DNA of 64,000 nucleotides from Betaproteobacteria bacterium (lineage in GTDB: Bacteria; Pseudomonadota; Gammaproteobacteria; Burkholderiales; Rhodocyclaceae): NCBI GenBank assembly GCA_020621405.1, contig JAHRYN010000001.1, positions 310,001 to 374,000 on the forward strand, written 5' to 3'. Made by a program: the position numbers and the translations under genes. Under the pieces are notes generated by a model. The model had not been told where the DNA came from, searched no databases, and was given only the letters and a program-made list of their open reading frames with translations. Shown here piece by piece: positions 20,711 to 37,614 of the stretch; the stretch's first letter is position 1, and every line of letters starts with the position of its first letter.

Positions 20711-20733
20711 TTCGCCGCCGGCAATGGCGGTGC

Positions 20734-21543
20734 TCAGACCGCCCCCTTGTGCGGCGAGGTGGACACGAAGGGCACGCCGAAGAAGGTCAGGAAGGCGATG
20801 ACGAAGACCGCGACCACCAGCCAGGATGCCGCCTGCGGCGACAGCCGGGACGTCGCCCGTGCGTGCAGCGCGAACGCCAGCGTCAGCCAGGTGACGAAGG
20901 CCCAGGTTTCCAGCGGATCCCACGCCCAGTAGCGCCCCCAGGCGTCCTGCGCCCAGATCGCCCCGGCGATCAGCATCAGTGTTTCGAAGATGAAGCCGAG
21001 CGCCATGCAGCGGTAGGCGAGCTCGTCCAGCCGTCCGTCGGCCGGCAGGCGCTGGAAGCGGTCGCGCCCCCAGACCGTGGCACGCATCAGGACGACGCCG
21101 GACAACCCGACCGCCACCAGCACCGCACCGAGGAAAACCTTGCCGAAGCCGATGTGGATGAACAGCCAGGTGGTGTGATACGTGGGCGGAAAGTGACCGG
21201 CCTTCGGGCTGGTCATCAGCAGCCAGCCCATCATCAGGAACAGGATGGGCATCACCACCGCGGCACTGGGCCGGATGGCGGGCAGGCGCCAGTAGGCGAT
21301 GGTGAAGGCGAGCATCAGGCTCCAGACATTGCTGGACAGGATTTCGAACATCGTGATGAACGGACCATGGCCGAGGCGATCCCATCGCACGACGATGGAA
21401 GCGGTGTGGCAGGCCAGCCCGAGCACCATCAGTCCGAGTATCAGGCGCTGCCAGTTCCGGCGCAGCACGACGCCGAAGATGGCGCCCGATCCGGCCAGCA
21501 CGTAGGCCAGCACAGCCGCCCACAGTTGTTGCGCTTCAAGCAT
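20734..21543 (-). CDS. cytochrome c biogenesis protein CcsA/ResC family
   Basis: A 269-residue membrane protein of the CcsA/ResC/CcmC superfamily with about eight helices. It has the WWD-like motif GRYWAWDPLETWAFVTWL near residue 212 and conserved histidines (CHTASIVVRWDRLGHGP; YHTTWLFIHIGFGK) that bind haem. CcsA with ResB/Ccs1 forms the System II haem synthase. ATG at 21543 is chosen over 21549 because GGAG lies at better spacing. It overlaps resB by 8 bp. The ResB-CcsA pair placed directly after a giant multihaem cytochrome is a known pattern in metal-reducing bacteria and suggests a dedicated maturation route. Confidence 0.88.
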   Translation of the reverse strand: MLEAQQLWAAVLAYVLAGSGAIFGVVLRRNWQRLILGLMVLGLACHTASIVVRWDRLGHGPFITMFEILSSNVWSLMLAFTIAYWRLPAIRPSAAVVMPILFLMMGWLLMTSPKAGHFPPTYHTTWLFIHIGFGKVFLGAVLVAVGLSGVVLMRATVWGRDRFQRLPADGRLDELAYRCMALGFIFETLMLIAGAIWAQDAWGRYWAWDPLETWAFVTWLTLAFALHARATSRLSPQAASWLVVAVFVIAFLTFFGVPFVSTSPHKGAV

Positions 21544-22588
21544 TGCCATCTCCGTCAGGCACCTCGACGCCGTCCCATGGCTGGCTGGCGAACTTGCGCC
21601 AGAAATGCCAGCCCAGCGCGACGGTCGCCGACACCGCCGCCGCCAGCAGCCAGGGAATGGTCCAGTCGTAGAACACCGTGTATCCCATCCACGCCCGCAA
21701 GCCCTGATAAGTCAGTCGACCGCCGGGCAACACCACGTACTGACCCGGCTGCAGCGTCCATCGCCGGTCGCCGACGCGCAGCACCAGAACATGCTCCGCC
21801 GGCAGCTTGAATTCGTCGGCACGCTCCGGATCGATCAGCGCTCCGTCGAACTGCAGCATGGTCCATGCTTCGATGCCCGATTCCGGCAGACGCCAGTTCC
21901 GTGCCTGCCTGTACTCATGCAAGGGATATGCCGGCAGGTGGACCGAACCGGTCACGCTGCCGGCTCCACCTGCGGGCGTCCATGCGAAGGTGGGCGCGAA
22001 GCCCTTGTTGTGGCTGGTGTAGAAGCGGTAGCCGCACAGCGTCAGCGGTGTCTGGTCGCCGATCACCGCCTGCCCGACCGCGCCCGACGCATCGAGGAAG
22101 CGCACGGCGTTGCGGGTCGGCCCGCGCCGCATGCCCGGGTCGTAGTCGATGCGGAAGCCATCGCTGGCAAAGCGCACCTGATCGAGCCGGCCGAAGTGCC
22201 AGGGTCCCGCCTCGACCGCCGACAGCTGCCCCTCGAACCAGGTCCCGTCGGTCAGTTCCAGCTGTCCCTTCAGATAGGTCATGCGCCCCAGGGCCACGAG
22301 CACGATCAGCGCCAGCAGACACAGATGGAACACCAGCAGCGGCAGCTGCCGGCGGAAGATGCCGTTGCTGGCGATGGCGGCCATCAGGTTGATCGCGCAC
22401 AGGGTCAGCGGCAGCACCAGCGCCCAGACGGTGCGCGTATCGCTGAGGTAGGCGGCGACCACGCCGACCGCCAGCAGCACGAGGATGGCGAGCGTCAGTT
22501 TCAGCGAGGCGAGCCGCGACAGCAGCCGCCACAGCCGGCCACGCAGCGCGCGTGATGGAGTCGATGCGGCGGACATGGACGAGGTCAC
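21536..22588 (-). CDS. ResB/Ccs1-like cytochrome c biogenesis protein
   Basis: A 350-residue ResB-family protein with three N-terminal helices (LKLTLAILVLLAVGVVAAYLS; VWALVLPLTLCAINLMAAIA; LLVFHLCLLALIVLVALG), a periplasmic domain of about 200 residues and a C-terminal helix (WTIPWLLAAAVSATVALGWHFW). It is shorter than classical Ccs1 but has the same topology, including the SLKLTLAILVLLA start and IYDW-like (VFYDWTIPW) ending. It overlaps the 11-haem cytochrome gene by 4 bp and ccsA by 8 bp, so the three are translationally coupled. Predicted role: apocytochrome and haem handling in System II. Confidence 0.85.
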   Translation of the reverse strand: MTSSMSAASTPSRALRGRLWRLLSRLASLKLTLAILVLLAVGVVAAYLSDTRTVWALVLPLTLCAINLMAAIASNGIFRRQLPLLVFHLCLLALIVLVALGRMTYLKGQLELTDGTWFEGQLSAVEAGPWHFGRLDQVRFASDGFRIDYDPGMRRGPTRNAVRFLDASGAVGQAVIGDQTPLTLCGYRFYTSHNKGFAPTFAWTPAGGAGSVTGSVHLPAYPLHEYRQARNWRLPESGIEAWTMLQFDGALIDPERADEFKLPAEHVLVLRVGDRRWTLQPGQYVVLPGGRLTYQGLRAWMGYTVFYDWTIPWLLAAAVSATVALGWHFWRKFASQPWDGVEVPDGDGNA

Positions 22589-25251
22589 GGCGGATTGGTG
22601 CAGTTCTCGTTGGAGTCACGCATCCAGCTGCGGCCGCTCTGGCCGTTGCCCGGCGCGCCCCGGGAGCCGCAGTTCGTGTCCGACCAGTTGCCGCTGGTGG
22701 CGAAGGTGCGGATCTTGTTGATCGCATTCAGGTAATACGGCTCCTGGTTGTACGCCGCCGTGGTGTTGTTGCGCACCTGGGTCCCCGCCACCTGACCGGC
22801 CTCCGGTCCGACGTCGTTCAGGTTCACCAGCAACGCCTTGTTCTTCCAGCCATGCGGCACCGCCACGTGGCACCAGTTGCAGCGCATGCGCCCGATCTTG
22901 TCGGCGTGATAGGAATGCAGGTTGCTGTCCTTGCTGCCGCCGAAACCGCTGGAGCCGCCGCCCCGCGTCGCATAGAGGCTGTAGCTGTGGCACTTGAAGC
23001 ACAGGCCGTCGGCCTGCTGCCCGGTTCCGGTAGACGTGTTCCAGGCACCCTTGAGCAGGAAGTTATTGTTGGAACCGTGCGGCCCCCAGGGGCTGCCGTT
23101 CTCGCCGCCATCCGGAATCACCGACGCCGTGCCCGACGCAACCCCGGAGCCGTGGCAGTCGGTGCAGTACATGGTCTGGGTCCCCACGGCGTTGCGCCAC
23201 GGGAAGTTCCAGTTTCCGGCACCGGCATTGCGGACGGCCGGCGTGCGGCCGGTGCTGTCCATCACCGGATGCCAGGACCGGTGGTTGTTGGTGGTGAAGT
23301 TGGCACCGGCACCGCTGTCGGTCGTCGTCGTTTCGCCCTTGTGCGCCACCGGCGCCTGGAATTCACGCGCCTGGTTGGTGTACTGGGTCAGGTTGTTGGT
23401 GCCGGTGGGCGTGCCGCCGGTGAAACTGCCCAGCGTCGGCCGGCTGCCGTTGGGGTGGTTGTTGTTGTCGGTATAGCCGTAATCCGAATGGCACTTGAGG
23501 CAGATCTGGTACTCGCGGGTCACGTGGTTGGCGCTGGCGCTGGTGTCGGTACTGTTGCCGGGGTCGCCCCGCTTGACCAGATAGCTGGTAGGCAGGCTGT
23601 TGAACGACGCCGAGCCGTAGATCGGTTCCACCCCCCAGGCGCCGCGCAGCACACCCGAGGCGATGTTGGAGTGACTGGTCGCCGCATCGTCGGTATGACG
23701 GTGCGTGCCGGCCGCATCGGGTGCGCCGACCAGGCTGCCACTGCCGGCGACACCGCGGAAATCACGGAACTTCACGACCCGGTGAGGGTTGTGGCAGTCG
23801 GTGCATTCGGCATGGCGGTTGCTCAGGTTGGCGACACCCAGCCTGGCCCGGCTTTCCATGAAGTCCTTGCCGCAATTGCTGGTGGCCAGACTGCAGTTGA
23901 TGAAGATGCCGTCATTGAAATTCGAGCTGATGTCGTGCTTTTCGGTGCCGGCCGGCTGATCGACCGAGCGGATCGGCATGTGTCGGGCAAGGTTGGTGAA
24001 GTCGTCCTTGATGTTGGGCACCGAGGTGGTTGGCGTGATGACGCTCTGGGCGGCATTGGCGTGGCACTGGTAGCAGGTTTCCTCGATCGCCGGATTGCCG
24101 CCCGACTTCGGCGTGGCTGCACTGTCCGTGCCGTCCCGCAGCAGGCGCCGCGAACCCGCCACGGAATGCGTGTCATGGCAGTTCAGGCAGGCTGCCTTCC
24201 ACACCGGCATGCCGACCGGAAATTGCCGCTGTGCCGCCGCGGCAGTGGTGTAGGTCTGGGTGGCGACCAGCGGATTGGCGTGGGCGGAACCGGCCCAGCT
24301 GCCGCTGAAGCCGTTCTTGTCGTGACAGGCCAGACAGATGATGTCGCCCGAATTCACGGTGACGTCGAAGCCGCTGGCGCTGGGTGGATTCTTTTCCTGG
24401 AAGCGGTTCAGGCGCAGGAACTTCTGGTTGCCGACGACCGCCTCGTTCTGCTCGCGGATATGGGGATCGTGGCAGCTGGCACACTGGATCTGCGGCTGAT
24501 TCCCGACTTCGGGAATCGGTTCCAGCGGCAGCCGTGGTCGGACGCCCGGCGAGCGTGCGCCGACCACGACGCCGTCCGGCGGACGCAGCTCGCCGTCGCG
24601 ACTGGCCAGTGCGGCGTCGAAGGTGACCGATATCGGATGATCGTTGGACAGGTCGGTGCCCAGATTGCGGGTGAAGCCGGTGTCGGTCCCCGCCCCGGCG
24701 GGCATCTTGTGCGGGGCGGCAGCGCTGTCGGTGACGCCACCGGCGTTCATCGTGATGCTGCGCGTGCCCGGTGTGGAGGCGCTGCCCTGGCCATTGAGCA
24801 CATTGACACTGCCGATGGCCATGGTGCCGTCGTGGCAGGACAGGCAGAGCTTGGAACTGCCGCCGGGCTGGTTGAGCGCGCCCTGTATCTGCTTGGCGTC
24901 CAGCGTCGACGAGTCGTACATCACGTAACTCTGCGTATAGCCCTGCCCCGCCACCTTGCGGTTCCACAGCGGCGTCGCACCACTGGTGGCGGCGTGCGGC
25001 GTATGGCAGAAGACGCAGATCTGCGTTTCGCTCGACGCCCTGATGTTGCGGTTCGGCACGACGCCGGCGCCGTTAGGGCCGGCATAGGCGGCGCCGTCGG
25101 CGGCCGCCGACAGATTGTGCCGGGTACCGCGCACGTCCGAAATGCGCGCTGCCGCGGCCGGATCGACGCCGAAGCGGAGGATCACGCCGACGATGGAAAC
25201 GAGCGCCAGCAGCGCCCATAAGGACTGACGCGCGACCGGATCAGTGGCCAC
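22585..25251 (-). CDS. 11-haem c-type cytochrome
   Basis: An 888-residue protein with one N-terminal hydrophobic segment (LWALLALVSIVGVILRFGV) that may serve as signal or anchor, and 11 CXXCH motifs: CVFCH, CLSCH, CASCH, CLACH, CLNCH, CYQCH, CTDCH, CLKCH, CTDCH, CFKCH, CNWCH. The first four, with surrounding RGTRHNL, CVFCHTPH, PLWN, CLSCHDG, NDHPIS, CASCHDPH and CLACHDK, repeat the tetrahaem module of the proteins at 34.0 and 36.3 kb. The rest is a seven-haem extension rich in Asn, Gly, Ser and Thr, typical of surface-exposed multihaem cytochromes. GTG at 25251 has GGAGG upstream and overlaps the NHL gene by 11 bp. It is the best candidate for the outermost electron-transfer component, near the porin-like gene. 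Confidence 0.9.
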   Translation of the reverse strand: MATDPVARQSLWALLALVSIVGVILRFGVDPAAAARISDVRGTRHNLSAAADGAAYAGPNGAGVVPNRNIRASSETQICVFCHTPHAATSGATPLWNRKVAGQGYTQSYVMYDSSTLDAKQIQGALNQPGGSSKLCLSCHDGTMAIGSVNVLNGQGSASTPGTRSITMNAGGVTDSAAAPHKMPAGAGTDTGFTRNLGTDLSNDHPISVTFDAALASRDGELRPPDGVVVGARSPGVRPRLPLEPIPEVGNQPQIQCASCHDPHIREQNEAVVGNQKFLRLNRFQEKNPPSASGFDVTVNSGDIICLACHDKNGFSGSWAGSAHANPLVATQTYTTAAAAQRQFPVGMPVWKAACLNCHDTHSVAGSRRLLRDGTDSAATPKSGGNPAIEETCYQCHANAAQSVITPTTSVPNIKDDFTNLARHMPIRSVDQPAGTEKHDISSNFNDGIFINCSLATSNCGKDFMESRARLGVANLSNRHAECTDCHNPHRVVKFRDFRGVAGSGSLVGAPDAAGTHRHTDDAATSHSNIASGVLRGAWGVEPIYGSASFNSLPTSYLVKRGDPGNSTDTSASANHVTREYQICLKCHSDYGYTDNNNHPNGSRPTLGSFTGGTPTGTNNLTQYTNQAREFQAPVAHKGETTTTDSGAGANFTTNNHRSWHPVMDSTGRTPAVRNAGAGNWNFPWRNAVGTQTMYCTDCHGSGVASGTASVIPDGGENGSPWGPHGSNNNFLLKGAWNTSTGTGQQADGLCFKCHSYSLYATRGGGSSGFGGSKDSNLHSYHADKIGRMRCNWCHVAVPHGWKNKALLVNLNDVGPEAGQVAGTQVRNNTTAAYNQEPYYLNAINKIRTFATSGNWSDTNCGSRGAPGNGQSGRSWMRDSNENCTNPP
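24500..24515. repeat. perfect TTCCCG-N4-CGGGAA palindrome inside the 11-haem gene
   Basis: TTCCCG-ACTT-CGGGAA lies within the coding sequence, with matching A/T on either side. It is a single site with no tandem partner and no obvious -24/-12 promoter downstream. Confidence 0.5.
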
Positions 25252-26323
25252 TCTCGCTGCCTCCGCCCAGAAACTGGAACACCACGATGCGGCCGTTGAA
25301 AGTGTCGGCCACGAACACCCTGTTGCGGGCGTCGACCCACACGCCGCCCGGCAGATAGAAACTCCCGATCTCCTTGCCGGTGCCGCCTATCGGAAGCAGG
25401 AACCGGCCCCGTGCGTCGAACACCAGCAGGTGATCGTGGTAGGACTCGACGACGTAGATGTTGTCTTCGGAATCGACCGCGACGCCCTTGGGCCGCACGA
25501 AGTCGCCGAGCCGTGTGCCGCGGTGGCCGAAAGCCGCCGCACTGCCGCTGTCGTCCAGCGGAATGATCTGGATGCGCGCATTCATGGTGTCCGCCACCAC
25601 CAGCCCGTTGCGGCTCAGTGCGAGGTGGGTCGGAAAGTTGAACTCGCCCAGTCCCTCGCCACGCCGGCCGATGCTGCGCACCAGGCGGCCGGTCATGTCG
25701 AACACCTTGATCTGGTGGGCCTGCGTATCGGCCACGTAGAGCAGCGAACTGGCGGCATCCCAGGCCACGCCGGTCGGACGCTGCAGCTGGTCGCGACCGA
25801 TCACGCCGACGCCCTTGCCGCTGCGGTCCAGCATGACGACGCGCTGCAGTTCGGCATCGGCCACGAACACCCGCCCCTCCGGACCGAGCGCAATGCCCGA
25901 AGGCGCCATGAAGTGACGGAAGCCCTCGGCGTACTCCCAGACATCCATCTGCCCGGACTTCTCGTCGAACACGAAAACCGCGCCGCGGCTGACGTCGGTC
26001 ACCAGAATCCGCCCATCTTCGTCGACCACCCCGGACTGCGGCCGCTGCAGCACCACCGGATCCTGATTTTCCAGCCAGCCGGCAAGCACCTTCAGGACGC
26101 CGATGAAAACGTTCTGTTCCTTTTCCTCCGGCGCGACGAAATTCTGCTCCCCCACCAGTTCGCCCAGATAGACGTAACGCGGCACTTCGCCGTCGGTCTC
26201 GGGCGGAAAGAGCACGCGCCGCGTCTCCGCCGCGGGTGACAGGTTCATTCGCAACACATCGCGGCCGGAGCTGGCACAGCCGGCTGCGAGAATGGCAAAG
26301 AGGGCGGCGATCACGAGTTTCAC
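25241..26323 (-). CDS. NHL-repeat beta-propeller lipoprotein
   Basis: A 360-residue lipoprotein: signal MKLVIAALFAILAAGCASSG with lipobox AAGC (Cys16). Five to six NHL-type blades follow, for example PSGIALGPEGRVFVADAEL, PTGVAWDAASSLLYVADTQ, PTHLALSRNGLVVADTMN, PKGVAVDSEDNIYVVESYH and PGGVWVDARNRVFVADTF. NHL propellers of this sort recur beside multihaem cytochrome genes in Geobacter-like bacteria, where they are thought to be structural. It overlaps the upstream propeller gene by 4 bp (ATGA). A paralogue with the same layout is encoded at 35.2-36.3 kb. It is probably tethered to a membrane facing the periplasm or the surface. Confidence 0.88.
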   Translation of the reverse strand: MKLVIAALFAILAAGCASSGRDVLRMNLSPAAETRRVLFPPETDGEVPRYVYLGELVGEQNFVAPEEKEQNVFIGVLKVLAGWLENQDPVVLQRPQSGVVDEDGRILVTDVSRGAVFVFDEKSGQMDVWEYAEGFRHFMAPSGIALGPEGRVFVADAELQRVVMLDRSGKGVGVIGRDQLQRPTGVAWDAASSLLYVADTQAHQIKVFDMTGRLVRSIGRRGEGLGEFNFPTHLALSRNGLVVADTMNARIQIIPLDDSGSAAAFGHRGTRLGDFVRPKGVAVDSEDNIYVVESYHDHLLVFDARGRFLLPIGGTGKEIGSFYLPGGVWVDARNRVFVADTFNGRIVVFQFLGGGSESGH

Positions 26324-27264
26324 GGGTTCAGCCGGAAGGTGGCGATGCGCCGGCCACCGGGATCCGCGACGTAAAGCAGCCTGTTCATGACCGCCATGCC
26401 CTGCGGATTGACCAGACGCAGGTCGGCGAATCCGGGGTCGGCGCGCAGCGTACCGTCACGGTAGATGCGGAGCTGCCGCTCCATGCCGTCGGCGACCACC
26501 AGCCAGCCATCGCCGGCAGCCAGCGCGGTGACGTTGCCCAGATCCTCGGCCACCACTTCCTTGCCGCGAGTGCCGAACGGATCGATCGCCACGACGCAGC
26601 CGCAGGCCCGCCCCGCAACGTAGAGCCAGCGGCTGTCCATCGCCATCGCCTGCGGCAGGTCGGGCAGCAGGCCCGGCGGCAGCACGGTCCCTCCGCGTCC
26701 GTGCGGCATGATTTCCTCGAGCCGCCCCTGCACCCGGTCGAGACCGTAGAAGCGCCCGCTGTTCGGGTCGGCCACGACGTCGTCGTAGCTGGCCAGCCCG
26801 TTCTGCGGCTCTATGGTCTGCCGGGGCAGGCCGCCTCGGTCATAGCGCCGGGCCGGCACATTGCCGCCGTTGGACAGGACCACCGATCCGTCGGGCAGGC
26901 TGGCGATGCGCGACTGCTGCGTGACGCGCGCGCCGGGAATCGCCGTCATGGCATCCAGGACCGGGTCGTAGCGGAACAGCGCGCCAAGACCGGGGTCGGC
27001 GACGTACAGGTCCATCGGCGTCACCGCCACCGCCAGCGGGAACACGAACATGGTCATCGGTCCGAACGTATCGGGCCGCATCCCGGGCATGCCGGCAGGA
27101 CCGGTCCGCTGCAGCAGCCGTGCGCCGACATAGCTGCGGTCAGGCACGACGACCGCGCCCGGCGCCGCCCGCACCCCCGGCGCCAGCGCCGCGGACGCCG
27201 CCAGCAGCAGGCGCCGGCGCGTCGGACTGACGGGCTTACCAGCGCCCGGGGCCAGAAGTTTCAT
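26320..27264 (-). CDS. exported NHL-like beta-propeller protein
   Basis: About 314 residues, with a twin-arginine-like export signal (SPTRRRLLLAASAALAPGVRA) and then a propeller with degenerate NHL blades: VAVTPMDLYVADPGLGALFRY, YDDVVADPNSGRFYGLDR, PQAMAMDSRWLYVAGRACGC and PQGMAVMNRLLYVADPGGRRI. The ARRYD and QNGLASYDD stretches are not familiar. It overlaps the trihaem cytochrome gene upstream by 29 bp and the NHL lipoprotein gene downstream by 4 bp. ATG at 27264 is preferred over the GTG six bases upstream. The Tat-like signal could mean it is exported folded, perhaps with a cofactor. Function unknown. Confidence 0.72.
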   Translation of the reverse strand: MKLLAPGAGKPVSPTRRRLLLAASAALAPGVRAAPGAVVVPDRSYVGARLLQRTGPAGMPGMRPDTFGPMTMFVFPLAVAVTPMDLYVADPGLGALFRYDPVLDAMTAIPGARVTQQSRIASLPDGSVVLSNGGNVPARRYDRGGLPRQTIEPQNGLASYDDVVADPNSGRFYGLDRVQGRLEEIMPHGRGGTVLPPGLLPDLPQAMAMDSRWLYVAGRACGCVVAIDPFGTRGKEVVAEDLGNVTALAAGDGWLVVADGMERQLRIYRDGTLRADPGFADLRLVNPQGMAVMNRLLYVADPGGRRIATFRLNP

Positions 27265-27628
27265 GTCCACCGTATACCCCCGAAGGCAGGCCCGGTTTGC
27301 CCGAATGGCATAGATCGCAGCGCTCCGGCGACCAGGCTATGTCGTTGTTGTGGCAGGCCCCGCAATAGCGGCCCTCGATGATTTCGGTCATGTTGATGCT
27401 GTTGCCGCCGGCCTTCATCCTGAAACCCAGTTCGGCGTGGCAGACCTTGCAGCGGAAGCGGATGCGGTGAAACCAGTGCGGGAACACGACCGGGCGCACA
27501 CCGTTGCGGTCCGACTGGCGATTGATGACCACGTCGGCGTATTCGGCCGCGGCCGGCAGGCTGGACAGCAGCAGAAGGGCCGCGGCGGCCCCGGGCAGCA
27601 GGCACCGGGCGGATGCACGGCCGGTCAC
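27236..27628 (-). CDS. c(7)-type trihaem cytochrome, periplasmic
   Basis: A 130-residue exported cytochrome with signal peptide (LLPGAAAALLLLSSLPAAA) and one c(7)-type trihaem domain: CKVCH, CGACH and CDLCH, with the axial histidines in FPHWFHRIRF and the family pattern AGGNSINMTEIIEGRYCGACHNNDIAW. This is the domain first catalogued as 'nanowire 3-haem'. It is close in sequence to the protein at 30.2 kb (both start AEYxDVVIN). The start is GTG at 27628, whose GTGA overlaps the stop of the preceding trihaem gene, with GGGGAAGG upstream. Expected role: periplasmic electron shuttle between membrane and outer-membrane components. Confidence 0.92.
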   Translation of the reverse strand: MTGRASARCLLPGAAAALLLLSSLPAAAEYADVVINRQSDRNGVRPVVFPHWFHRIRFRCKVCHAELGFRMKAGGNSINMTEIIEGRYCGACHNNDIAWSPERCDLCHSGKPGLPSGVYGGHETSGPGRW

Positions 27629-28191
27629 GGCGCCTTCCCCGCCGGCTGGTGCATCAGCGGATTGACGCCGCCCGGCACTTCCGGCGCCTGTCCGGGCTGT
27701 CTGGAGATGCTGTGGCAGCGCACGCACTCGGTCAGCGGGAAAGCCACGGCGCCATGGCAGACACCGCACTGCTCGCCCTGCAGGATCAGGAACATCGATA
27801 TCCGGGTTTCGCCGGTCCTGCTCCTGAACAGGCCTTCGTGGCAGTTGCTGCAGTCCAGCCATTCGGTGTGCTGGCGGTGCGGAAAGCGCACGGCCGGCAT
27901 GCCGCCATTGACGTCCAGGATGATGTCCTGATCGAGCTTCCTGATCCGTGTGGCCGGGTTGAGCTTCTCCCGCGGCTGGATTTCACCCTTTTCCAGCGCC
28001 TGCACCCAGCGCACCTGATTGCCTGCGGTATCGGGAATCAGGCGCGACAGGGCGTCGCGCGGCTGCTGCAGCTGCTTGATGCCCGGTCCGCGCGGGTCAT
28101 GCACGCCGTCGCGTGCCAGCGGCAGCCACTCGCCGGCCAGCACGACTGAATACGCCGACAGACAAACGACAAAAGCGATCAGGCCCCGCAT
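27625..28191 (-). CDS. c(7)-type trihaem cytochrome with N-terminal extension
   Basis: A 188-residue exported protein with signal peptide (MRGLIAFVVCLSAYSVVLAG), then an extension of about 75 residues (HDPRGPGIKQLQQP...NQVRWVQALEKGEIQPREKL). The trihaem domain with CSNCH, CGVCH and CVRCH lies at the C-terminal end. The extension and the FPHRQHTEWLDCSNCH entry are shared with the proteins at 29.2 and 40.9 kb, so these three form a subfamily distinct from the AEYxDVVIN type. The stop overlaps the next trihaem gene by 4 bp. The pair is probably made together and interacts. Confidence 0.9.
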   Translation of the reverse strand: MRGLIAFVVCLSAYSVVLAGEWLPLARDGVHDPRGPGIKQLQQPRDALSRLIPDTAGNQVRWVQALEKGEIQPREKLNPATRIRKLDQDIILDVNGGMPAVRFPHRQHTEWLDCSNCHEGLFRSRTGETRISMFLILQGEQCGVCHGAVAFPLTECVRCHSISRQPGQAPEVPGGVNPLMHQPAGKAP

Positions 28192-28228
28192 GCGGGAGCT
28201 GATCGCCGTGCTCGGGCAGGATGCCGGC

Positions 28229-29158
28229 TCAGCCGGGGATGTAGATGCCCGCATTGCGGATGGCCCGCACCAGTTCGGCGGTGGATTCCTCCAGCAACTT
28301 GACCGCCTGCGCATGGTCCTTCTGTCCGGCCGCCCCTTCGGCCGAGGTACGCAGGGTGCGCGCTTTCGCGACGAAGGCCGAAACCTGCTGGTCGAGCGCC
28401 GGATTGTCGGCCCGCTTCTCCTGCACCAGCATGTTGATCAGCATCAGATGCGTGTCGTTGCGGTCGATCTCGTAGTGGTACTCCTCTTCCTTGCTGGCGA
28501 AATTGAGCGAGCGCACCAGCGTATCGCCGCTGCGCATCGAGCTGATGCCGGCCTTGGCCACCAGGTAGGCGCGATCCAGCTCACTGCGCCCTTCCCGGTA
28601 TTTGCCGCCCAGTGCCAGCCGGGCCGCCTCGGCCACCGACTTCTCGATCTGTGCGACCGTCTCGCCGACCGCCTTCGCGGTGCCGCCCTTCTCGTTAGCC
28701 ACCCGCTTGTAGGCACCGAGCAGCGCGTTGACGCTGTCCAGGCGCGCTTTGTAGTCGTTCTCCAGCTTCTTGGCCGTGACCTCCTCCGGCGCAGCCAGCC
28801 GGACCGCCTCGAAAAAGGTCGAGCGCGCCTCGGTCAGCAAGGCGGACGCCTTGTCCAGATCGCCACCCTGCAGCGCGGCCCTGGCCGCCTGATAGACCTC
28901 CTTCGCCCGGTCACGACGGGCCATCGCCTCGGGTGCCCTGCTCGCCTCGATCTGGCGTGCGGCGGACGAGCTTTCGAGCAGCTTGCCGACCGATTCGACA
29001 TTGAAGGCCAGCTGATCCTTGTCCACACCGGCGGCGGACAGCCGGGTCGCGGCGCTTTGCGCCGGCGGCTCGCTGTCCGCGGCACCGGCGGTTGCGCCGT
29101 ACGCCAGCGCGGCCAGCAATGTGGCCAGACCGGCCTGTTTCAGTACTTTCAGCTTCAT
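28229..29158 (-). CDS. unrecognised helical periplasmic protein (family shared with 39.8 kb gene)
   Basis: I do not recognise this 309-residue protein. It has a signal peptide (VLKQAGLATLLAALAYGATAGAA) and then is almost wholly alpha-helical, rich in A, E, K, R and L, with TPR-like segments (AKEVYQAARAALQGGDLDKASALL). It contains no cysteine haem motif. Its last 100 residues align with those of the gene at 39.8 kb around S-G-[DE]-x-[LV]-V-[RH]-SLNF-[AS]-S-x-x-EEY-x-YEI and a later ExxxxLxRAxxxxG ending. Both copies are embedded between trihaem cytochrome genes, so a role in handling, docking or assembling those cytochromes is likely. ATG at 29158 starts the signal peptide and has CGGAG ahead. 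Confidence 0.7.
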   Translation of the reverse strand: MKLKVLKQAGLATLLAALAYGATAGAADSEPPAQSAATRLSAAGVDKDQLAFNVESVGKLLESSSAARQIEASRAPEAMARRDRAKEVYQAARAALQGGDLDKASALLTEARSTFFEAVRLAAPEEVTAKKLENDYKARLDSVNALLGAYKRVANEKGGTAKAVGETVAQIEKSVAEAARLALGGKYREGRSELDRAYLVAKAGISSMRSGDTLVRSLNFASKEEEYHYEIDRNDTHLMLINMLVQEKRADNPALDQQVSAFVAKARTLRTSAEGAAGQKDHAQAVKLLEESTAELVRAIRNAGIYIPG

Positions 29159-29183
29159 GTGCACACTCCGTTGCCCGGCACGC

Positions 29184-30179
29184 TCATTTGGCCGGTTCGG
29201 CCGCAGCCGGCCGGACTGCCAGTTCCTTCTTCTTGGAATGGCAGTTCCGGCACTCGGATACCGGGAAGGCCACCTTGCCGTGGCACACGCCGCATTTTTC
29301 ACCCATCAGGATGGCGGCCATGCTGATCGAGTTGGCGCCCTTCTGCGGAATGAAGATGGCCGGATGACAGTTGGAACAGTCCAGCCATTCGGTGTGCTGC
29401 TTGTGCGGATAGACCACGTCAGGCATCGACCCCTTCACCTCGCGCACGATGTTCAGATCCATCACCACCGGCTCCGCCTTCGGATCCAGCCGGTCGTAGC
29501 GCGGATTGAGCTTCTTCTGGTTGAGCGCCTCCACCCAGTTGATGCGGTTGCCGGCATTGCTCTTGGGCAGTGGCCCGAAGGCGGTCAGCGGCGGCTGCAG
29601 CGCGTGGGTACCGTCGCTCGACGGATCGTGTATGCCGTCTTCCGGCGGCGGCAGATTGCGCTTGCTCACCGGCTTGAGCAGACGGTTGAAGGAATTAACG
29701 TCGGCCGGTGCCGCCGCGGCCACCTCGGTCGTGGCCGCCGACGTCGTCGCGACGGCAGCGGGCACCGGAGCGGCTTTCGGCTCGTCCTTCGCGGTGTCGG
29801 CCTTCCTGGCTTCGTCCTTGCGCGCCTCTGCCTTCTTCGGTTCGGCCTGGGCAGCGGCCGGCCTGGCCGCATCCTTGACCGCAGCCAGCATGAAATCCAC
29901 GGCCCCCTTCGCTTCGGCGTCGGACAGCGCAAGATTGCCCCCCTTCGCCGGCATGCCTTTCGGCGTTCCGTTCAGGGCGCTCTGATAGAGCCTGGCCACG
30001 CCGCCCGCGACGCGGGGTGCCCAGTCGCCGGCGTTGCCGTAACGGGGCGCACCGGCCAGACCGCTGGCATGACAGGTCGCGCAGACCTTGCCATAGACAT
30101 CCTTGCCGGACTGTTCGGCCGCTGCCGGCACGGCAGCCAGGGCCAGAACCAGAAACGCCATCCTGCTGATCATCGTCAT
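29184..30179 (-). CDS. tetrahaem cytochrome: cytochrome c5-like domain fused to c(7)-type trihaem domain
   Basis: A 331-residue exported protein with a signal peptide (MAFLVLALAAVPAAA) and a class I cytochrome c5-like domain. That domain has CATCH near residue 33, then GAPRYGNAGDWAPR and the Met region KGMPAKGG. A charged Ala/Lys/Glu/Pro-rich linker (about 105-160) follows, and then the N-extended trihaem module with CSNCH, CGVCH and CRNCH. The c5-like half closely resembles the free mono-haem protein at 37.2 kb. The fusion joins a single-haem carrier to the trihaem wire by a flexible tether, probably allowing reach across the periplasm. It lies between another trihaem gene (10 bp upstream) and the unknown helical protein. 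Confidence 0.9.
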   Translation of the reverse strand: MTMISRMAFLVLALAAVPAAAEQSGKDVYGKVCATCHASGLAGAPRYGNAGDWAPRVAGGVARLYQSALNGTPKGMPAKGGNLALSDAEAKGAVDFMLAAVKDAARPAAAQAEPKKAEARKDEARKADTAKDEPKAAPVPAAVATTSAATTEVAAAAPADVNSFNRLLKPVSKRNLPPPEDGIHDPSSDGTHALQPPLTAFGPLPKSNAGNRINWVEALNQKKLNPRYDRLDPKAEPVVMDLNIVREVKGSMPDVVYPHKQHTEWLDCSNCHPAIFIPQKGANSISMAAILMGEKCGVCHGKVAFPVSECRNCHSKKKELAVRPAAAEPAK

Positions 30180-30188
30180 GGCGCCTCC

Positions 30189-30608
30189 TTACTTCTTCGG
30201 TGTGCCGGCAGGCTGCGCCAGCTTGTGGATGGTGCTTTCGTGCACCTGCGTCTGCGTTCCGGGCTTGCCGGAATGGCACAGATTGCAGTTCTCGACCGAC
30301 CAGGCGATGTCGCCGTTGTGGCAGGCACCGCAGAACTGGCCATCGATGATCTTCACCATGTTGATCTCGTTGCCGCCGGCCTTCATCTTGAAGCCGAGGT
30401 CGGCATGACAGACCTTGCAGCGAAAGCGCATGCGGTGGAACCAGTGCGGAAATACCGCCGGCCGCATGCCGGCCGCATCCGAGTAGTTGTTGATCACCAC
30501 ATCCCCGTATTCCGCCTGTGCGTCCGGAATATCCACGAACAGCACCGTGCACAGAGCCAGCACCACGCCGGTGGCCAGCCCGCGCATCAGGCTCAAGAGT
30601 CTTTTCAT
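30189..30608 (-). CDS. c(7)-type trihaem cytochrome, periplasmic
   Basis: A 139-residue exported cytochrome with signal peptide (LMRGLATGVVLALCTVLFVDI...AQA) and trihaem domain CKVCH, CGACH, CNLCH. The axial histidines lie in FPHWFHRMRF and the signature is AGGNEINMVKIIDGQFCGACHNGDIAW. It is the closest relative of the protein at 27.2 kb (AEYGDVVINNYSD versus AEYADVVINRQSD), so the pair arose by duplication. The start is the ATG at 30608, preceded by AGAGGAAG. It follows the porin-like gene by 52 bp, as expected for a periplasmic partner of a trans-outer-membrane conduit. Confidence 0.92.
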   Translation of the reverse strand: MKRLLSLMRGLATGVVLALCTVLFVDIPDAQAEYGDVVINNYSDAAGMRPAVFPHWFHRMRFRCKVCHADLGFKMKAGGNEINMVKIIDGQFCGACHNGDIAWSVENCNLCHSGKPGTQTQVHESTIHKLAQPAGTPKK

Positions 30609-30660
30609 CTTTCTTCCTCTGGTTCCAGTCGAATGCAGGCGTCCCGGACGGACTCGCGTA

Positions 30661-32850
30661 TCAGAACGCACCGATCTGCCGGGTCACCTGGAAGAAGAGC
30701 AGAGCATTTTTCTTGCCACCCACATCGTTGACCGCCAGATTGAGGCGGAAGTCGAGCAGACCGATGCGGTAGTCGAAGCGATTGGCGAGCGTCCAGCGGG
30801 CCCGATCTATCTCGCCGTTGATGTTGCCCAGCAGGCGCTCGTCGCGCAGACGCGTGTCGGCGGTGAACAGCAGGCTGTAGCGCAGGCCGCGATAGCCGAG
30901 AAATTTGGTGTGCGTATACGACGCCGATCCGAGCAGCGTCATGTGCTCGCTCCGGTCGCTGATGGTCGGAAAACCGAAGGCCTGCTGGTTGTCGGTGCTC
31001 TGCTGGTTCCAGTTGAACTGCAGGTTCACATTGGCCGAACTGAGCGGAGACAGCTGCGCCATGCCGTTGAAGCCGAGATTCAGCATGCGGTAATGCAGGG
31101 CGCTGGCGCCGCTGGTCAGGATGTCCGACAGCGTCAGCGTCGAGGCGCCGGTGATCTGTTCCCCCCAGCGCAGGCCATAGCTGGCGGCGGCGCTGTGGGT
31201 CAGCGAGGTGGAATTTCCGACCGACTGGTTCTGGTTCGCGCTGACGCTCTGCGACAGCGAGACCGACAGGGTTTCCCGTTCGGACAGCGCCAGAAAGCGT
31301 CCCACCGAGTGCCCGACCTGGAGCCCGACGAAATAGCTGGAAGGGATCTCTCCGCTGGCGCTCTGCCAGTTGCCGTTGCCACCGGCGTTCCAGTTATAAG
31401 AAAAATTCCCAAACATGAGAGGATTACCGACGTAGTTGACGTTGGCGCCCAGCATCGTCAGGAAGATGGTCGGACTGCCCGCCGTGCTGACCTGATTCAC
31501 CGCGGCATTGACGCCGGTGGTCAGATTGTTGGAAAAGCGGTAGAGCGCATTCACGTTGGCACCGACGCTTTGCGTGTCGATGCCGAAGCCGCCGAAGCTG
31601 TTGCGCATGGTCGAGTAGCGCAGGCTGCCGCTGAGCGTCAGCGGCAGCTGGTCGGTGTCCTCGAATTCCGGCATCCAGGTTCCGAATCCACTGAGCAGGA
31701 TGAAGCGGGTCCGGCTGTCGGCGCTGCTTCCCAGACCATTGCCGCTGCGGATGGCGTTGTCCAGATAGTTGAAGCTGCCGGACAGGTTGAGGTTGTCGTC
31801 CAGATTCGCGTTGTGCGCGGTATTCAGGCCGATGAGCCGCGCCCGCTCGCCGCTGCCGCTGCGTTCGCCGAGCGAATAGCGGCCGTTGAAGCTGTTCTTC
31901 ACGATGCCGATGTCGGTGGCGAAGTTTCCGGACAGCGCGGTCAGCGTGTCGTCGTTGCCGTTGTTCGACTTCACGACACTGTGGTCGATCTGACCGCCGG
32001 CGCTGGTCACCCCGTCCTCGCCGCGATAGGTCTGGCGCAGTCCCACGCGGGTGTTCACATAGTCGTTGCTGACCAGGTTTCCGCTGGCCCGGCTGTCGGA
32101 ACGGTCGAAGTAGGCCTGGAACGGAAAGCGACTGGTCGGAAATACATTCAGATCGCCGCCGCCCACCAGATTCGAACTGCGGTTCTGGTTGTCCTGCCCT
32201 CCGCCGACACCGGAATTGCCGCCGGCGCTGCTGCGGGAGGTGCTGGTCGTCATGCCGAAGCGTCCGGACACCGTGGCAGCCCATGGCGCATAGATGTAGC
32301 TGGCCGCGTTGAAGCTGGAAAAGAGGCTCTGCGATACCGTACTCGCGCCACCGCTGGCCGAGCTTCGCTGCAGCGAGTAACCCTGCGTGCCGCCCCAGCG
32401 GATGGGCGGGATGACCCACGAAACACGGGGGCTGGCCTGTTCCCGGTTTCGGGAATCCGCTTCGGGCCGTGGTGCGACGGGTGACGGTCCGGGACTGTCC
32501 GTTTCTGCCTCCGTCGGCACCTCCGGTTGCGAAGGCCGGGGCAGCCCTTCATCCGGCACGTCGATGCGGCGCGATGGCCGCAGACCGTATTCATCGCCAG
32601 GCGGAGCGCTGCCGGTCTGCGGCTGCGGCCGGGTCCATGTCCCGGGGGCAGATATGGCCTGACTCAGGCGCAACGGCGGTTCAAGCCCGGCTTCGGCAAC
32701 CGGCTGCGCTGTTATGACTTCGGGTTCCGAATAGACGAATTGCACCGCCTGGGCCAGCGGAGACAGGGCAAACATCGCAGCGCCAGCCGCGATGACCGCC
32801 GGCTGGCTGGACGTGAACCTGCATCGACGGGGAATCTTGATACCGACCAT
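30661..32850 (-). CDS. large outer-membrane beta-barrel protein (porin of an electron conduit)
   Basis: A 729-residue protein with a signal peptide (PAVIAAGAAMFALSPLAQA) and a Pro/Glu-rich periplasmic segment up to about residue 150. About 570 residues of alternating hydrophobic/polar strands follow, rich in Asn, Ser, Gly and aromatics, and it ends in Phe (QIGAF) as outer-membrane barrels do. The length is enough for 20 or more strands, comparable to MtrB/PioB or Geobacter OmbB-type conduit porins; I see no convincing sequence identity to any of them. It sits between a parvulin isomerase and trihaem cytochromes, as conduit porins do. No haem or cysteine motif is present. Predicted role: sheath that lets a multihaem cytochrome cross the outer membrane (inference). 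Confidence 0.75.
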   Translation of the reverse strand: MVGIKIPRRCRFTSSQPAVIAAGAAMFALSPLAQAVQFVYSEPEVITAQPVAEAGLEPPLRLSQAISAPGTWTRPQPQTGSAPPGDEYGLRPSRRIDVPDEGLPRPSQPEVPTEAETDSPGPSPVAPRPEADSRNREQASPRVSWVIPPIRWGGTQGYSLQRSSASGGASTVSQSLFSSFNAASYIYAPWAATVSGRFGMTTSTSRSSAGGNSGVGGGQDNQNRSSNLVGGGDLNVFPTSRFPFQAYFDRSDSRASGNLVSNDYVNTRVGLRQTYRGEDGVTSAGGQIDHSVVKSNNGNDDTLTALSGNFATDIGIVKNSFNGRYSLGERSGSGERARLIGLNTAHNANLDDNLNLSGSFNYLDNAIRSGNGLGSSADSRTRFILLSGFGTWMPEFEDTDQLPLTLSGSLRYSTMRNSFGGFGIDTQSVGANVNALYRFSNNLTTGVNAAVNQVSTAGSPTIFLTMLGANVNYVGNPLMFGNFSYNWNAGGNGNWQSASGEIPSSYFVGLQVGHSVGRFLALSERETLSVSLSQSVSANQNQSVGNSTSLTHSAAASYGLRWGEQITGASTLTLSDILTSGASALHYRMLNLGFNGMAQLSPLSSANVNLQFNWNQQSTDNQQAFGFPTISDRSEHMTLLGSASYTHTKFLGYRGLRYSLLFTADTRLRDERLLGNINGEIDRARWTLANRFDYRIGLLDFRLNLAVNDVGGKKNALLFFQVTRQIGAF
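32440..32455. repeat. perfect TTCCCG-N4-CGGGAA palindrome inside the barrel gene
   Basis: TTCCCG-GTTT-CGGGAA lies in the coding sequence for the linker after the signal peptide. It is a single copy. Whether it is regulatory or a chance match cannot be told. Confidence 0.45.
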
Positions 32851-32872
32851 TCACGCCCAGCGAAGGCGCGCG

Positions 32873-33931
32873 CTACTTCCGGCCGGCCTCCTGCTGCTCC
32901 GCAGATACTCCATGAAGGAACTTCACGTCAGCCGCTGCAACCAGCTTTGCGATCAGCCCCTTCCAGGCCTGATCCTGACGTTCACGGATTAGCAAGTCCC
33001 GTGCGCGCTGAGCGACTTCCGGAAATTCCTTCTTCTTCGGTGCCAGGCGATCGTCGAGACGGACGATCGCGATGCCCTGCAATGTTTCCAGCGGCGGATT
33101 GATGCGACCGAGTTCGTACTTGTCTATCTGCTCCTGCAGTATCTCGGGCAGCATGCCGCGATGCAGATAGCCCATGTCGCCGCCGGTCTCGGCGTAGGCC
33201 GCCGAGTGCATGCGCGCCGCGTCGGCGAAGTCGGCACCGCCGGAAACACGCTTGTAGATGGCCTGGGCCTCTTCCCGCGTCGCCTCCCACGCGGTCGCCG
33301 GTGAGGACGGATCGACAGTCAGCAGGATTACCGACAGACGGATCTTTTCCGGTTCGGTGAACAGCTCGGGTCTGGCATCGAAAAAGCTGCGAACCTCATC
33401 GCCCCCCGGATCAGGCACCTGACGCGCCTGCTCCTCGAGCCGCGCAACCAGACTCTGCTCCTCGAGTTGCTGCCTGAGGCCGGGCAGCAGGCGCTCGCGG
33501 TTCTCCTTCCACGCCACGCTGGTGGCATAGCGGCTCTCGTAGCCGGCGATCGTTCTGTCGATCTGCACCGCATCGGGCACGATGCCGCGACGTCCCGCCT
33601 CGTCGAGCAGGACGATGCGCTGGACCAGCCGGTTCCTGACCTCTTCGCGCGCCGAAACCAGATCCTTTTCCGGCACCTGTCCGTGATAGAAGCGCTGGCG
33701 CACCAGGCTGGCAAAAGCGGTTTCGTATTCGGAGGTCGGAATGTCGCGACCGTTGACCACTGCAAAGGTCTGCGAATGCGACGGGCGGGCGTCGCCGCGG
33801 CTTTCCGCAACGGCTGTCTGCGCCGGTTCGCCATCGCCACCGGCGAAGGCAGGCGACGCACTCGCGCAAAGACTCAGCAGGACGGCCAGCAGGCCGGACC
33901 GGTCGATCATCGAAAGGGTGGGCACGGGCAA
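32873..33931 (-). CDS. periplasmic parvulin-type peptidyl-prolyl isomerase (SurA/PpiC-like)
   Basis: A 352-residue exported protein with signal peptide (SGLLAVLLSLCASASPAFAG), an N-terminal SurA-like helical chaperone region, and one parvulin domain near residues 205-320 (EKIRLSVILLTV; GADFADAARMHSAAYAETGGDMGYLHRGMLPEIL; RLDDR). Such isomerases fold outer-membrane barrels and are often encoded beside conduit porins and multihaem cytochromes. It lies 22 bp upstream of the barrel gene. GTG at 33931 follows GAGGAT at good spacing. A hairpin between this gene and the tetrahaem gene upstream probably lowers its expression relative to the cytochrome. Confidence 0.9.
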   Translation of the reverse strand: MPVPTLSMIDRSGLLAVLLSLCASASPAFAGGDGEPAQTAVAESRGDARPSHSQTFAVVNGRDIPTSEYETAFASLVRQRFYHGQVPEKDLVSAREEVRNRLVQRIVLLDEAGRRGIVPDAVQIDRTIAGYESRYATSVAWKENRERLLPGLRQQLEEQSLVARLEEQARQVPDPGGDEVRSFFDARPELFTEPEKIRLSVILLTVDPSSPATAWEATREEAQAIYKRVSGGADFADAARMHSAAYAETGGDMGYLHRGMLPEILQEQIDKYELGRINPPLETLQGIAIVRLDDRLAPKKKEFPEVAQRARDLLIRERQDQAWKGLIAKLVAAADVKFLHGVSAEQQEAGRK

Positions 33932-33944
33932 ATCCTCGAATGAA

Positions 33945-33981
33945 AAAGCGGGCCAGGCACTGGATTGGCCTGGCCCGCTTC
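33945..33981 (-). terminator. strong hairpin between tetrahaem cytochrome and isomerase genes (terminator or attenuator)
   Basis: A perfect 13-bp stem (arms 33946-33958 and 33968-33980, 9-nt loop) is followed on the minus strand by a short T-run. It would end most transcripts of the tetrahaem gene and let a fraction read through into the rest of the operon, giving excess of the first cytochrome. Confidence 0.7.
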
Positions 33982-34010
33982 AGTCCGTCTGGAACTTCTG
34001 GTCGGGCGCC

Positions 34011-34880
34011 TTACTTGTTGTGGCAGGTCAGGCAGACCGCGCTCTGCGCGTTGGACACGCGAAGGAAGGTCGCATTGGTGCTCGAATGTGGGTCATGGCA
34101 ACTGGCGCATTCGACGAAGGGCTGGAAGAAGCCGGAAGTCGCATCACCGGTCAGCGTCGGGGCACGGGCGTACAGGATCATGTCGGACTTCTCCCGCGTA
34201 CCCGTGGTACCGGCAGCGGAATCCACCCACCACACCCGGGTACCGGCGACGGTTCCGCTGGTAGGCGCGACAAAGTCGGGATCACGACAGTTGCCCGAAC
34301 TGGCTGCCGACGTCGAGGCGCTGCCGGTGCTGACGCCACCGCCGCAGTACTGGATGCCGACCGGATGGTCATTGGTCAGATCGCTCGTCAGATTGGCCAG
34401 ACCGATCATCTTGCCGGCCGTCTGATTGGCACCGGCCCACTGTCCGCCTGCGATCTGCGCGCCCGCAGCGTTGTAGTTGCCCGAGCCCGGCTGATTGATC
34501 ATGGTGTCCATGGCCTGGGTACCGTCATGACAGGACAGGCAGGCCAGCGAAACTCCGGACATGTCGACCGAACCGTCTATGGTGGACGAGGTCGCCGTGC
34601 TGTAGGTCTGGTAGGAACCGCCGTTGGTCGGCTTGTTCCACAACGGCGCCTTCACGTTCGTGTTCGATGCGTGCGGCGTATGACAGAAGACGCAGATTTC
34701 CGTCGTGCCGGTACTCATGAAATTCGTGTTGTTGCCGTTGGAAGCACCAAGGTTGTGTTTGGTGTCAGCAATGCCCGCCAAGGCCTGCTGACCACCCAGA
34801 ACCCCCAGCGCGAGCGCGGCTGCGGCAAGGAGTTTCAGCAAGCGTCCGGCATTGCTCCTTGTGGTGGCATGAGTTTGCAT
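34011..34880 (-). CDS. tetrahaem c-type cytochrome
   Basis: A 289-residue exported cytochrome with signal peptide (LLKLLAAAALALGVLGGQQALAG) and four haem motifs, CVFCH, CLSCH, CASCH and CLTCH. They are set in the paired-CXXCH framework TKHNLG...EICVFCHTPH...PLWN...CLSCHDGTQ...NDHPVGI...VECASCHDPH...FLRVSN...VCLTCHNK. The same framework occurs in the protein at 36.3 kb and at the N-terminus of the 11-haem protein. The mature part is rich in Ser, Thr, Asn and Gly. It is the first gene of a series running to 18.8 kb and has the best-supported sigma-54 promoter upstream. The start at 34880 puts the signal peptide first; GGGGGT lies ahead. It may be an abundant periplasmic or surface electron carrier. 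Confidence 0.92.
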   Translation of the reverse strand: MQTHATTRSNAGRLLKLLAAAALALGVLGGQQALAGIADTKHNLGASNGNNTNFMSTGTTEICVFCHTPHASNTNVKAPLWNKPTNGGSYQTYSTATSSTIDGSVDMSGVSLACLSCHDGTQAMDTMINQPGSGNYNAAGAQIAGGQWAGANQTAGKMIGLANLTSDLTNDHPVGIQYCGGGVSTGSASTSAASSGNCRDPDFVAPTSGTVAGTRVWWVDSAAGTTGTREKSDMILYARAPTLTGDATSGFFQPFVECASCHDPHSSTNATFLRVSNAQSAVCLTCHNK

Positions 34881-34941
34881 GGATGACCCCCGATCCCTGA
34901 AAAATTGATCACATTCGAGCTGTTCGCCCTGCCACCTGATC

Positions 34942-34958
34942 AGCAGCTTCCATGCCAA
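34942..34958 (-). promoter_or_regulatory. sigma-54 promoter candidate for the long cytochrome operon
   Basis: On the minus strand TTGGCATGGAAGCTGCT has GG (34956-34955) and GC (34944-34943) 10 bp apart, with TTGGCAT matching the -24 consensus. The start would be near 34931, about 50 nt before the ATG at 34880. Two palindromes lie 130-200 bp upstream. Confidence 0.6.
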
Positions 34959-35087
34959 TGACGGCGCCGGTCGGGACCGGATCGTCCCCGGCGGCCGGAA
35001 ACGCCGTCGCTGCGCGGGTTCCGGCCATCCGGAGGTCGTCGAGTGGAAATCTGTAGGGAATTTTCCGACAGCACCGACAGATATTTT

Positions 35088-35126
35088 TTCCCGGCCTCAG
35101 GAAACCGTCCTTCCCAGCCTTGGGAA
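35088..35126. promoter_or_regulatory. tandem palindromes upstream of the long cytochrome operon
   Basis: TTCCCG-GCCT-CAGGAA (35088-35103, one mismatch) and TTCCCA-GCCT-TGGGAA (35111-35126, a perfect palindrome that varies the core base symmetrically) lie 23 bp centre to centre. Their distance of about 165-190 bp from the predicted transcription start suits looping by an NtrC-type activator. The site is also just downstream of the NHL lipoprotein gene; lack of a T-run argues against it being a terminator. Confidence 0.5.
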
Positions 35127-35151
35127 GCCGCTCATGAAATGACCAGGGAAA

Positions 35152-36276: not shown

Positions 36277-36306
36277 TGCGAACTCCCTATCGCCGCGGAT
36301 CACGGC

Positions 36307-37140: not shown

Positions 37141-37149
37141 ACCGATTCC

Positions 37150-37488
37150 TCATCTCCTCGCACTGTGTGGAAGCATGTAGTCCAGCGCTGCGTTCGCCTC
37201 GATCGCCGACAGCGAGGCATTTCCCCCCTTCGGCGGCATCCCGCCCTTGCCGCGCAGTACCGAGCGCAGCAGATCGGCCCGGCCCGGCATCATCCTCACG
37301 CGCCAGTCATCCGGCTCGCGTGGTCGCGGCGCACCCGCCACGCCCTTCGAGTGGCACATGGCGCAGCTCTGCGCGTACACCTCCGCACCGCTGAAGCTGC
37401 TCCCCTCGGCCGCTGCCGGCGGAACCAACAGGAAAAGAGACAGCAGCGGAAGCAACAGCGCGAATGGCCCTGGAAAATGCTTTGGCAT
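37150..37488 (-). CDS. cytochrome c5-like mono-haem cytochrome
   Basis: A 112-residue exported class I cytochrome: signal peptide (FALLLPLLSLFLLVPPAAA), haem motif CAMCH near residue 40, then GVAGAPRPREPDDWRVR and the axial Met region KGGMPPKGGNASLS. The layout is that of cytochrome c5 and of the first domain of the fusion protein at 29.2 kb. ATG at 37488 is preferred because the signal peptide starts there; the frame runs open to 37548. It is the first gene of a minus-strand operon with its own sigma-54 promoter candidate. Confidence 0.88.
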   Translation of the reverse strand: MPKHFPGPFALLLPLLSLFLLVPPAAAEGSSFSGAEVYAQSCAMCHSKGVAGAPRPREPDDWRVRMMPGRADLLRSVLRGKGGMPPKGGNASLSAIEANAALDYMLPHSARR

Positions 37489-37607: not shown

Positions 37608-37614
37608 ACAGACC

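Follow-up and report, generated by a model that had tools for sequence, protein, structure and literature searches.

A probable Uet cluster with OmcE-like cytochromes between ppsA and ppsR in a member of the Rhodocyclaceae

In Tenderiales, the undecaheme electron transfer (Uet) cluster encodes a tetrahaem cytochrome (UetA), a prolyl isomerase (UetB), an outer membrane barrel (UetC), trihaem proteins (UetDEG), NHL proteins (UetHI) and an undecahaem cytochrome (UetJ), and Uet is also reported from six Gallionella genomes, with a UetC match in four (PMC10734462). Candidatus (Ca.) Tenderia electrophaga has Tel_16545 as its undecahaem gene, and its trihaem genes Tel_16515, 16520 and 16530 rank among those with the highest expression on a cathode (PMC5371394). 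UetJ and a porin occur in the Leptothrix-Sphaerotilus group (PMC13386937), and undecahaem clusters are found in metagenome-assembled genomes (MAGs) and in Mn-reducing Ca. Dechloromonas occultata (PMC13264449). Here we examine an operon in a window of 64,000 nucleotides (positions 310,001 to 374,000 of contig JAHRYN010000001.1, assembly GCA_020621405.1) from a betaproteobacterium of the Rhodocyclaceae. A first-pass annotation of this DNA had proposed a probable outer membrane electron conduit unlike the named Mtr, Pio or Omb systems. The genes and their arrangement correspond to those of the published Uet cluster, so the Uet name applies to the operon, and we hold its membership with high confidence. 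That membership is well supported; that the system anchors a cytochrome wire is something we infer. The Uet cluster is already known, though little studied. Added here are the homology to OmcE, the absence of one shared histidine from a second tetrahaem cytochrome (A2), an oxidase-like protein lacking the TM7 histidines, and the block between ppsA and ppsR.

The operon occupies approximately 18.8–37.5 kb of the minus strand; its first gene encodes a monohaem cytochrome (start 37548) and its last an oxidase-like membrane protein (end 18821). Letters A to J were assigned after the usage in PMC10734462, and signal peptides and lipoboxes were called with a simple script. In order from 37548, the genes are:

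37150..37548, minus strand: monohaem class I cytochrome c (PF13442, E 4.5e-13)
36307..37140, minus strand: A2, second OmcE-like tetrahaem cytochrome, CHTPH histidine replaced (9yuq E 2.4e-11, 7tfs E 4e-11)
35152..36303, minus strand: third NHL propeller, probable lipoprotein (PF01436, E 1.2e-21; lipobox LGAC)
34011..34880, minus strand: UetA, tetrahaem cytochrome (4 CXXCH), OmcE-like over its full length (9yuq E 5e-26, 7tfs E 3e-25)
32873..33931, minus strand: UetB, SurA/PpiC-type prolyl isomerase (Rotamase PF00639, E 2.9e-13)
30661..32850, minus strand: UetC, outer membrane barrel, 729 aa (AlphaFold2 model, pLDDT 82)
30189..30608, minus strand: UetD, trihaem c7-type protein (TIGR04257, 64.0 bits; predicted signal peptide)
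29184..30179, minus strand: UetE, class I monohaem domain (PF13442, E 1.6e-12) and trihaem domain (TIGR04257, 63.2 bits)
28229..29158, minus strand: UetF, secreted protein with weak YfdX likeness (PF10938, E 0.03, under the cut-off)
27625..28191, minus strand: UetG, trihaem c7-type protein (TIGR04257, 63.0 bits; predicted signal peptide)
27236..27628, minus strand: G2, extra trihaem c7-type protein (TIGR04257, 64.6 bits; predicted signal peptide; likely start GTG at 27628)
26320..27270, minus strand: UetH, probable propeller, weakly conserved (weak NCBIfam matches)
25241..26323, minus strand: UetI, NHL propeller, probable lipoprotein (PF01436, E 1.4e-29; lipobox AAGC)
22585..25251, minus strand: UetJ-type undecahaem cytochrome, 888 aa (11 CXXCH; residues 44–311 an OmcE-like four-haem module, the rest with seven more haems)
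21536..22588, minus strand: ResB (PF05140, E 6.1e-7; no NCBIfam match)
20734..21549, minus strand: CcsA, System II haem handling (TIGR03144, E 2.8e-44, 151.7 bits, under the curated 187.6)
18821..20737, minus strand: membrane protein, haem-copper oxidase subunit I-like with TPRs (start codon not fixed)

Tetrahaem A, isomerase B, barrel C, trihaem D, E and G and propellers H and I are thus clustered as in the published order, with G2 between G and H. The first-pass annotation had named most of these components correctly: the SurA-like isomerase, the tetrahaem and 11-haem cytochromes, the membrane haem protein, and four trihaem-domain proteins (D, E, G and G2, each well above the TIGR04257 cut-off of 40 bits). 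Its barrel of about 570 residues agrees with the 729-aa open reading frame (ORF), which comprises approximately 150 N-terminal residues of low model confidence and a barrel of approximately 580. System II maturation is present as ResB and CcsA, although both lie beyond the 22585–34880 it had delimited. Its parts are on the minus strand, and the likely UetA start, 34880, is the very end point it had given, but the operon is larger, and the third NHL protein, A2, the monohaem cytochrome and a divergent operon with a fifth TIGR04257 domain had been missed. Of its two secreted NHL propellers, UetI stands, while UetH had zero Pfam matches up to E 0.1, which makes the NHL label weak. The barrel lacks CXXC and matches no MtrB/PioB model, as had been stated, but gene content and order are those of a named system. 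Overall, the earlier interpretation as an electron conduit is partly supported.

Conservation of the locus was examined at two levels. Within the family, 13 of 150 genomes, counting the own one, have the barrel. Around the other 12 barrel matches, gene order is kept in nine loci and rearranged in two (L021 and L024), and the genes are all absent from one (L025), which had been fetched through a weak barrel match. Order kept in 9/12 loci indicates that the synteny is not due to chance. L021 and L024, and with them L031 and L034, possess the cluster, but the place between uetI and resB holds no undecahaem gene. In these loci uetD, uetE and uetF are placed beyond ccsA instead. UetJ is present in 7/9 family loci whose contig covers its position. 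The barrel alone, used as a query against genome contigs, gave zero matches, and plasmids had no barrel match. Because the barrel is divergent, UetJ was chosen as the search query. A scan with seven UetJ sequences confirmed at least 503 relatives, and the best 80 were compared. Eleven haem motifs, the number that defines the undecahaem protein and that is found here, occur in 78 of these 80 and nine in the other two. Sixty of the best 80 loci have at least 9.9 kb of upstream flank, and tblastn of these detected the barrel in 51, the isomerase in 51, UetD in 50, UetE in 56, UetF in 53, UetG in 49, UetI in 58, ResB in 53 and UetA in 42. UetH was matched in 18/80 loci, and three of the 80 (L076, L090 and L114) had no other cluster gene by tblastn. 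The OmcE-type C-terminal pattern described below lies upstream in 41 of the 60. Nine of the 19 loci without it have uetB or uetC as the first detected gene, so that the flank probably ends before uetA. Within the class, 40 of 369 sampled genomes, own included, carry UetJ (E ≤ 1e-80). A Gallionellaceae MAG (L043) carries A–E and G–J by tblastn, in keeping with the Uet reported from Gallionellaceae, and in the locus of Sphaerotilus mobilis (L056) B to J were detected. No record titled Tenderia is among the best 80 of the at least 503 confirmed relatives. The spacing of the Tenderia locus tags appears to fit A to J. Tel_16525, at the UetF position, is termed a TPR protein in PMC5371394, whereas the family search of the window UetF gave no TPR match.

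The cytochromes at the two ends of the core cluster resemble the subunit of a known nanowire. Among PDB sequences, UetA matches only 9yuq and 7tfs at E ≤ 0.01. The four haem motifs and four extra histidines of OmcE are found in UetA and in the UetJ N-terminus, and UetA retains the OmcE C-terminal pattern FLR..N..S.VCL.CH.K together with the extra histidines. Among 41 UetA-type ORFs, CHxxH is present in 41, DHP in 40, CHTPH in 37 and TxH[ND] in 34; 3/41 have fewer than four haem motifs. UetA and UetJ residues 44–311 are homologues of OmcE. A literature search met no published link between UetA or UetJ and OmcE; Eddie 2022, Szeinbaum 2020, Wang 2022, Baquero 2023 and Shen 2025 were outside its scope and may hold one. 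Foldseek returned no structural match for UetJ at E ≤ 10, and the VIA second look at UetJ comprised two chains only. In A2 the CHTPx position is never histidine, in the window or in 11/11 relatives (12/12). A lipid anchor for A2 was considered because the window protein has a lipobox, and rejected as readable relatives (L019–L024) have ordinary signal peptides.

Whether UetA polymerises is, in our estimate, evenly balanced. OmcE likeness could instead be ancestry without polymerisation, UetA being a monomeric surface cytochrome in a classical porin-cytochrome conduit with UetJ or UetA in the barrel. PMC10734462 describes UetA as an extracellular tetrahaem cytochrome, which is consistent with such a conduit, while retention of the OmcE C-terminal pattern and extra histidines in the 41 ORFs argues against it; we regard this alternative as rather unlikely. 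That UetJ anchors a UetA polymer is possible, though we lean towards doubting it. The specific form of this idea, in which UetJ is a wire socket with an OmcE-type subunit fused to a barrel-held seven-haem stalk, so as to give the UetA polymer a fixed, connected base, and A2 ends the polymer, is offered tentatively and is more probably wrong than right.

UetJ might, on the other hand, be a second cargo. UetB, UetC and the propellers could be mainly an Osc-like machine for export and assembly of UetA wires, with UetC as the secretion channel. OscH is a prolyl isomerase and OscD a beta-propeller. The osc operon reportedly encodes proteins with proposed roles in the making of OmcS wires, OscH in folding, OscE, F and G in secretion and OscD in morphology (PMC13194489), and similar protein types are encoded here beside an OmcE homologue; furthermore, two loci that lack UetJ at the site still have the barrel, the isomerase and UetA. 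Against this, a wide channel that always stood open would require a plug, and UetJ is present in most visible family loci (7/9), in the same operon as the barrel; the likeness to Osc is drawn from protein types. We consider an export machine improbable, though not negligibly so.

Modelled alone by AlphaFold2, UetC has approximately 28 strands, no plug and approximately 140–150 N-terminal residues of low confidence. The barrel is thus predicted to be wide and plugless. Solute transporters are among its structural neighbours, and BtuB is first in Foldseek, with MtrB third. The VIA second look placed MtrB first, one Z unit above a TonB receptor. Because of this narrow lead and the Foldseek ranking, UetC was not called MtrB-like by fold. 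A UetC barrel profile against PDB sequences gave nothing meaningful (best E 0.029). The transporter neighbours would also suit a redox system of the periplasm or outer membrane that has nothing to do with acceptors or donors outside the cell, as would the oxidase-like protein if it served another purpose, and the organism has no known electron acceptor or donor. Synteny of the barrel with multihaem cytochromes across many groups, and the expression of the cluster trihaem genes on a cathode in Ca. Tenderia electrophaga (PMC5371394), make this very improbable.

The last gene of the operon may supply the inner membrane step. A profile built for its product from 18 sequences, with that of the window among them, matches subunit I of ba3 oxidase over 17–450 (E 1.9e-12), and His 61, 203, 335 and 337 are invariant in the 18. 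In the alignment to ba3, the haem-copper oxidase histidines of TM2, TM6 and TM10 are present. At TM7, the HH of the CuB pair in ba3 faces non-His residues, and no conserved histidine was found in that stretch. The protein may therefore carry two b haems without CuB, fused to TPRs. As no NapC/CymA-type protein (PF03264) was found in the genome (1/14 control genomes were positive), the oxidase-like protein is a candidate for the inner membrane electron step. Haem maturation genes lie beside it within the same block:

16642-18612, minus strand: CcmF
16110-16652, minus strand: CcmG
15650-16120, minus strand: CcmH
14421-15653, minus strand: CcmI

Another CcmF is encoded elsewhere in the genome (C12:774704-776683) with 64% identity to the window CcmF; congener copies have 63–64%. 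Between the ccm genes and a two-component pair, the stretch 13227-14424 encodes a haem protein resembling Tll0287 and a protein resembling thioredoxin.

Our best overall explanation, which we consider somewhat better than an even bet, is an extracellular electron transfer system of the Uet type, probably acquired as a block, in which UetJ connects the barrel with a wire of UetA. Electrons would pass between the haem protein of the inner membrane and trihaem carriers in the periplasm (UetD, E, G and G2), and from these to UetJ, whose seven-haem C-terminal part would sit in or under the UetC barrel. Its OmcE-like N-terminal module would face outward and stand in for the first subunit of the polymer that UetA forms. 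Folding, export or stability of the cytochromes would be aided by UetB and the propellers, a role that has been proposed for the Osc proteins, and ResB/CcsA with the extra CcmFGHI would serve haem loading. RuBisCO large subunit (PF00016) was not found in the genome (5/14 control genomes were positive), making electroautotrophy based on the Calvin-Benson-Bassham cycle, as in Tenderia, unlikely. Electron export or lithoheterotrophic uptake is likelier.

Anchoring, export and cell connection of nanowires are called unresolved in a 2025 review (PMC12307469). A Uet operon with OmcE-like proteins suggests how nanowires could attach to the cell. Should UetJ prove to be a conduit-fused subunit of the OmcE type, the question would be testable with one operon, and the answer would concern many bacteria, given the occurrence of UetJ in the class (40/369). 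On the tentative socket reading, anchoring in the outer membrane would be readable from a gene fusion, and Uet would combine conduit and nanowire in one complete system that travels between genomes as a block needing little else. The oxidase-like protein would be a new candidate for the inner membrane step in a genome where no NapC/CymA-family protein was found.

The genomic setting bears on acquisition:

5167..43258, no strand assigned: block between ppsA (2731-5166) and ppsR (43259-44086), 38,092 bp
37464..41486, plus strand: divergent cytochrome operon with two class I multi-cytochrome proteins, a UetF-like protein and a fifth trihaem protein
9518..12417, minus strand: histidine kinase and sigma-54 response regulator that may control the block

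In 11/12 congeners the ppsA and ppsR matches are 102–220 bp apart, as against 38,092 bp here. The twelfth (G154) has approximately 21 kb between a ppsA piece and ppsR (G154:C72, about 0.7–21.7 kb), with 0 matches to 16 cluster queries at E ≤ 1e-3. Some genes of that interval read by eye like surface polysaccharide genes. The gap looks like an insertion hotspot. UetJ is confined to the own genome among 13 of the genus, and the genome's five TIGR04257 domains are all within this region. The simplest reading is that the Uet block was probably acquired between ppsA and ppsR; the close spacing makes loss in 12 congeners less likely. G+C along the window has no clear step. In a quick UetJ tree, the nearest neighbour of the window is a Rhodocyclales MAG (support 99), and groups are intermingled, for example a Desulfuromonas MAG with a Rhodocyclaceae MAG (support 100), although MAG binning errors are possible. 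Within the block, a second UetF-like protein was read at 39788-40645, adjoining the fifth trihaem gene and followed by a histidine kinase (41691-43058). Two proteins of two-component-regulator propeller repeats lie at 6189-8507; an ARAGORN tRNA-Arg at 7282-7372, inside a propeller ORF, is perhaps a false call and was unused as an insertion clue. Outside the block, adjacent DUF7830/DUF6035/DUF7829, DUF4268 and NERD proteins (47178-50494) are possibly a defence cluster.

The locus shares with MtrCAB, MtoAB and PioAB the common logic of a barrel with a multihaem cytochrome, but UetC has neither an MtrB/PioB family match nor CXXC, and the operon has no DmsE/MtrA protein above the cut-off. NCBIfam gave no TIGR03509 (MtrB/PioB barrel) match for UetC up to E 0.1; TIGR03509 was also absent from the genome search (0/14 control genomes positive), and with TIGR03508 (DmsE/MtrA) UetJ scored 43.1, UetA 28.8 and A2 20.8 bits against a cut-off of 192.2. 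Cytochrome c552 (PF02335) was not found in the genome (1/14 control genomes positive). PCC3, of iron-oxidising betaproteobacteria, likewise joins a porin to large multihaem proteins (PMC10734462), but its periplasmic subunit has 21–27 haems and the maximum in this operon is 11. From haem-copper oxidase subunit I of the ba3-type cytochrome c oxidase, the membrane protein differs in lacking the TM7 pair and in its TPR fusion, while sharing the profile match and the TM2, TM6 and TM10 histidines. Like the Osc companions of omcS, the operon places an isomerase, a channel and propellers next to a cytochrome of the wire type, a likeness drawn from protein types; Osc serves OmcS, whereas the cytochrome here is of the OmcE type. 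With OmcE of Geobacter sulfurreducens (7TFS), full-length UetA and UetJ 44–311 share four CXXCH and four extra histidines, but UetJ carries seven further haems in one chain, A2 lacks one histidine, and the operon includes a barrel. The closest match is Uet of Ca. Tenderia electrophaga and Gallionella, with the same components, the same A–J order and an undecahaem UetJ. To Uet as described in the papers cited here (the primary paper, Eddie 2022, may already list these extras), the window adds G2, the upstream module of monohaem cytochrome, A2 and NHL lipoprotein, the ResB/CcsA/oxidase-like genes and the ccmFGHI island.
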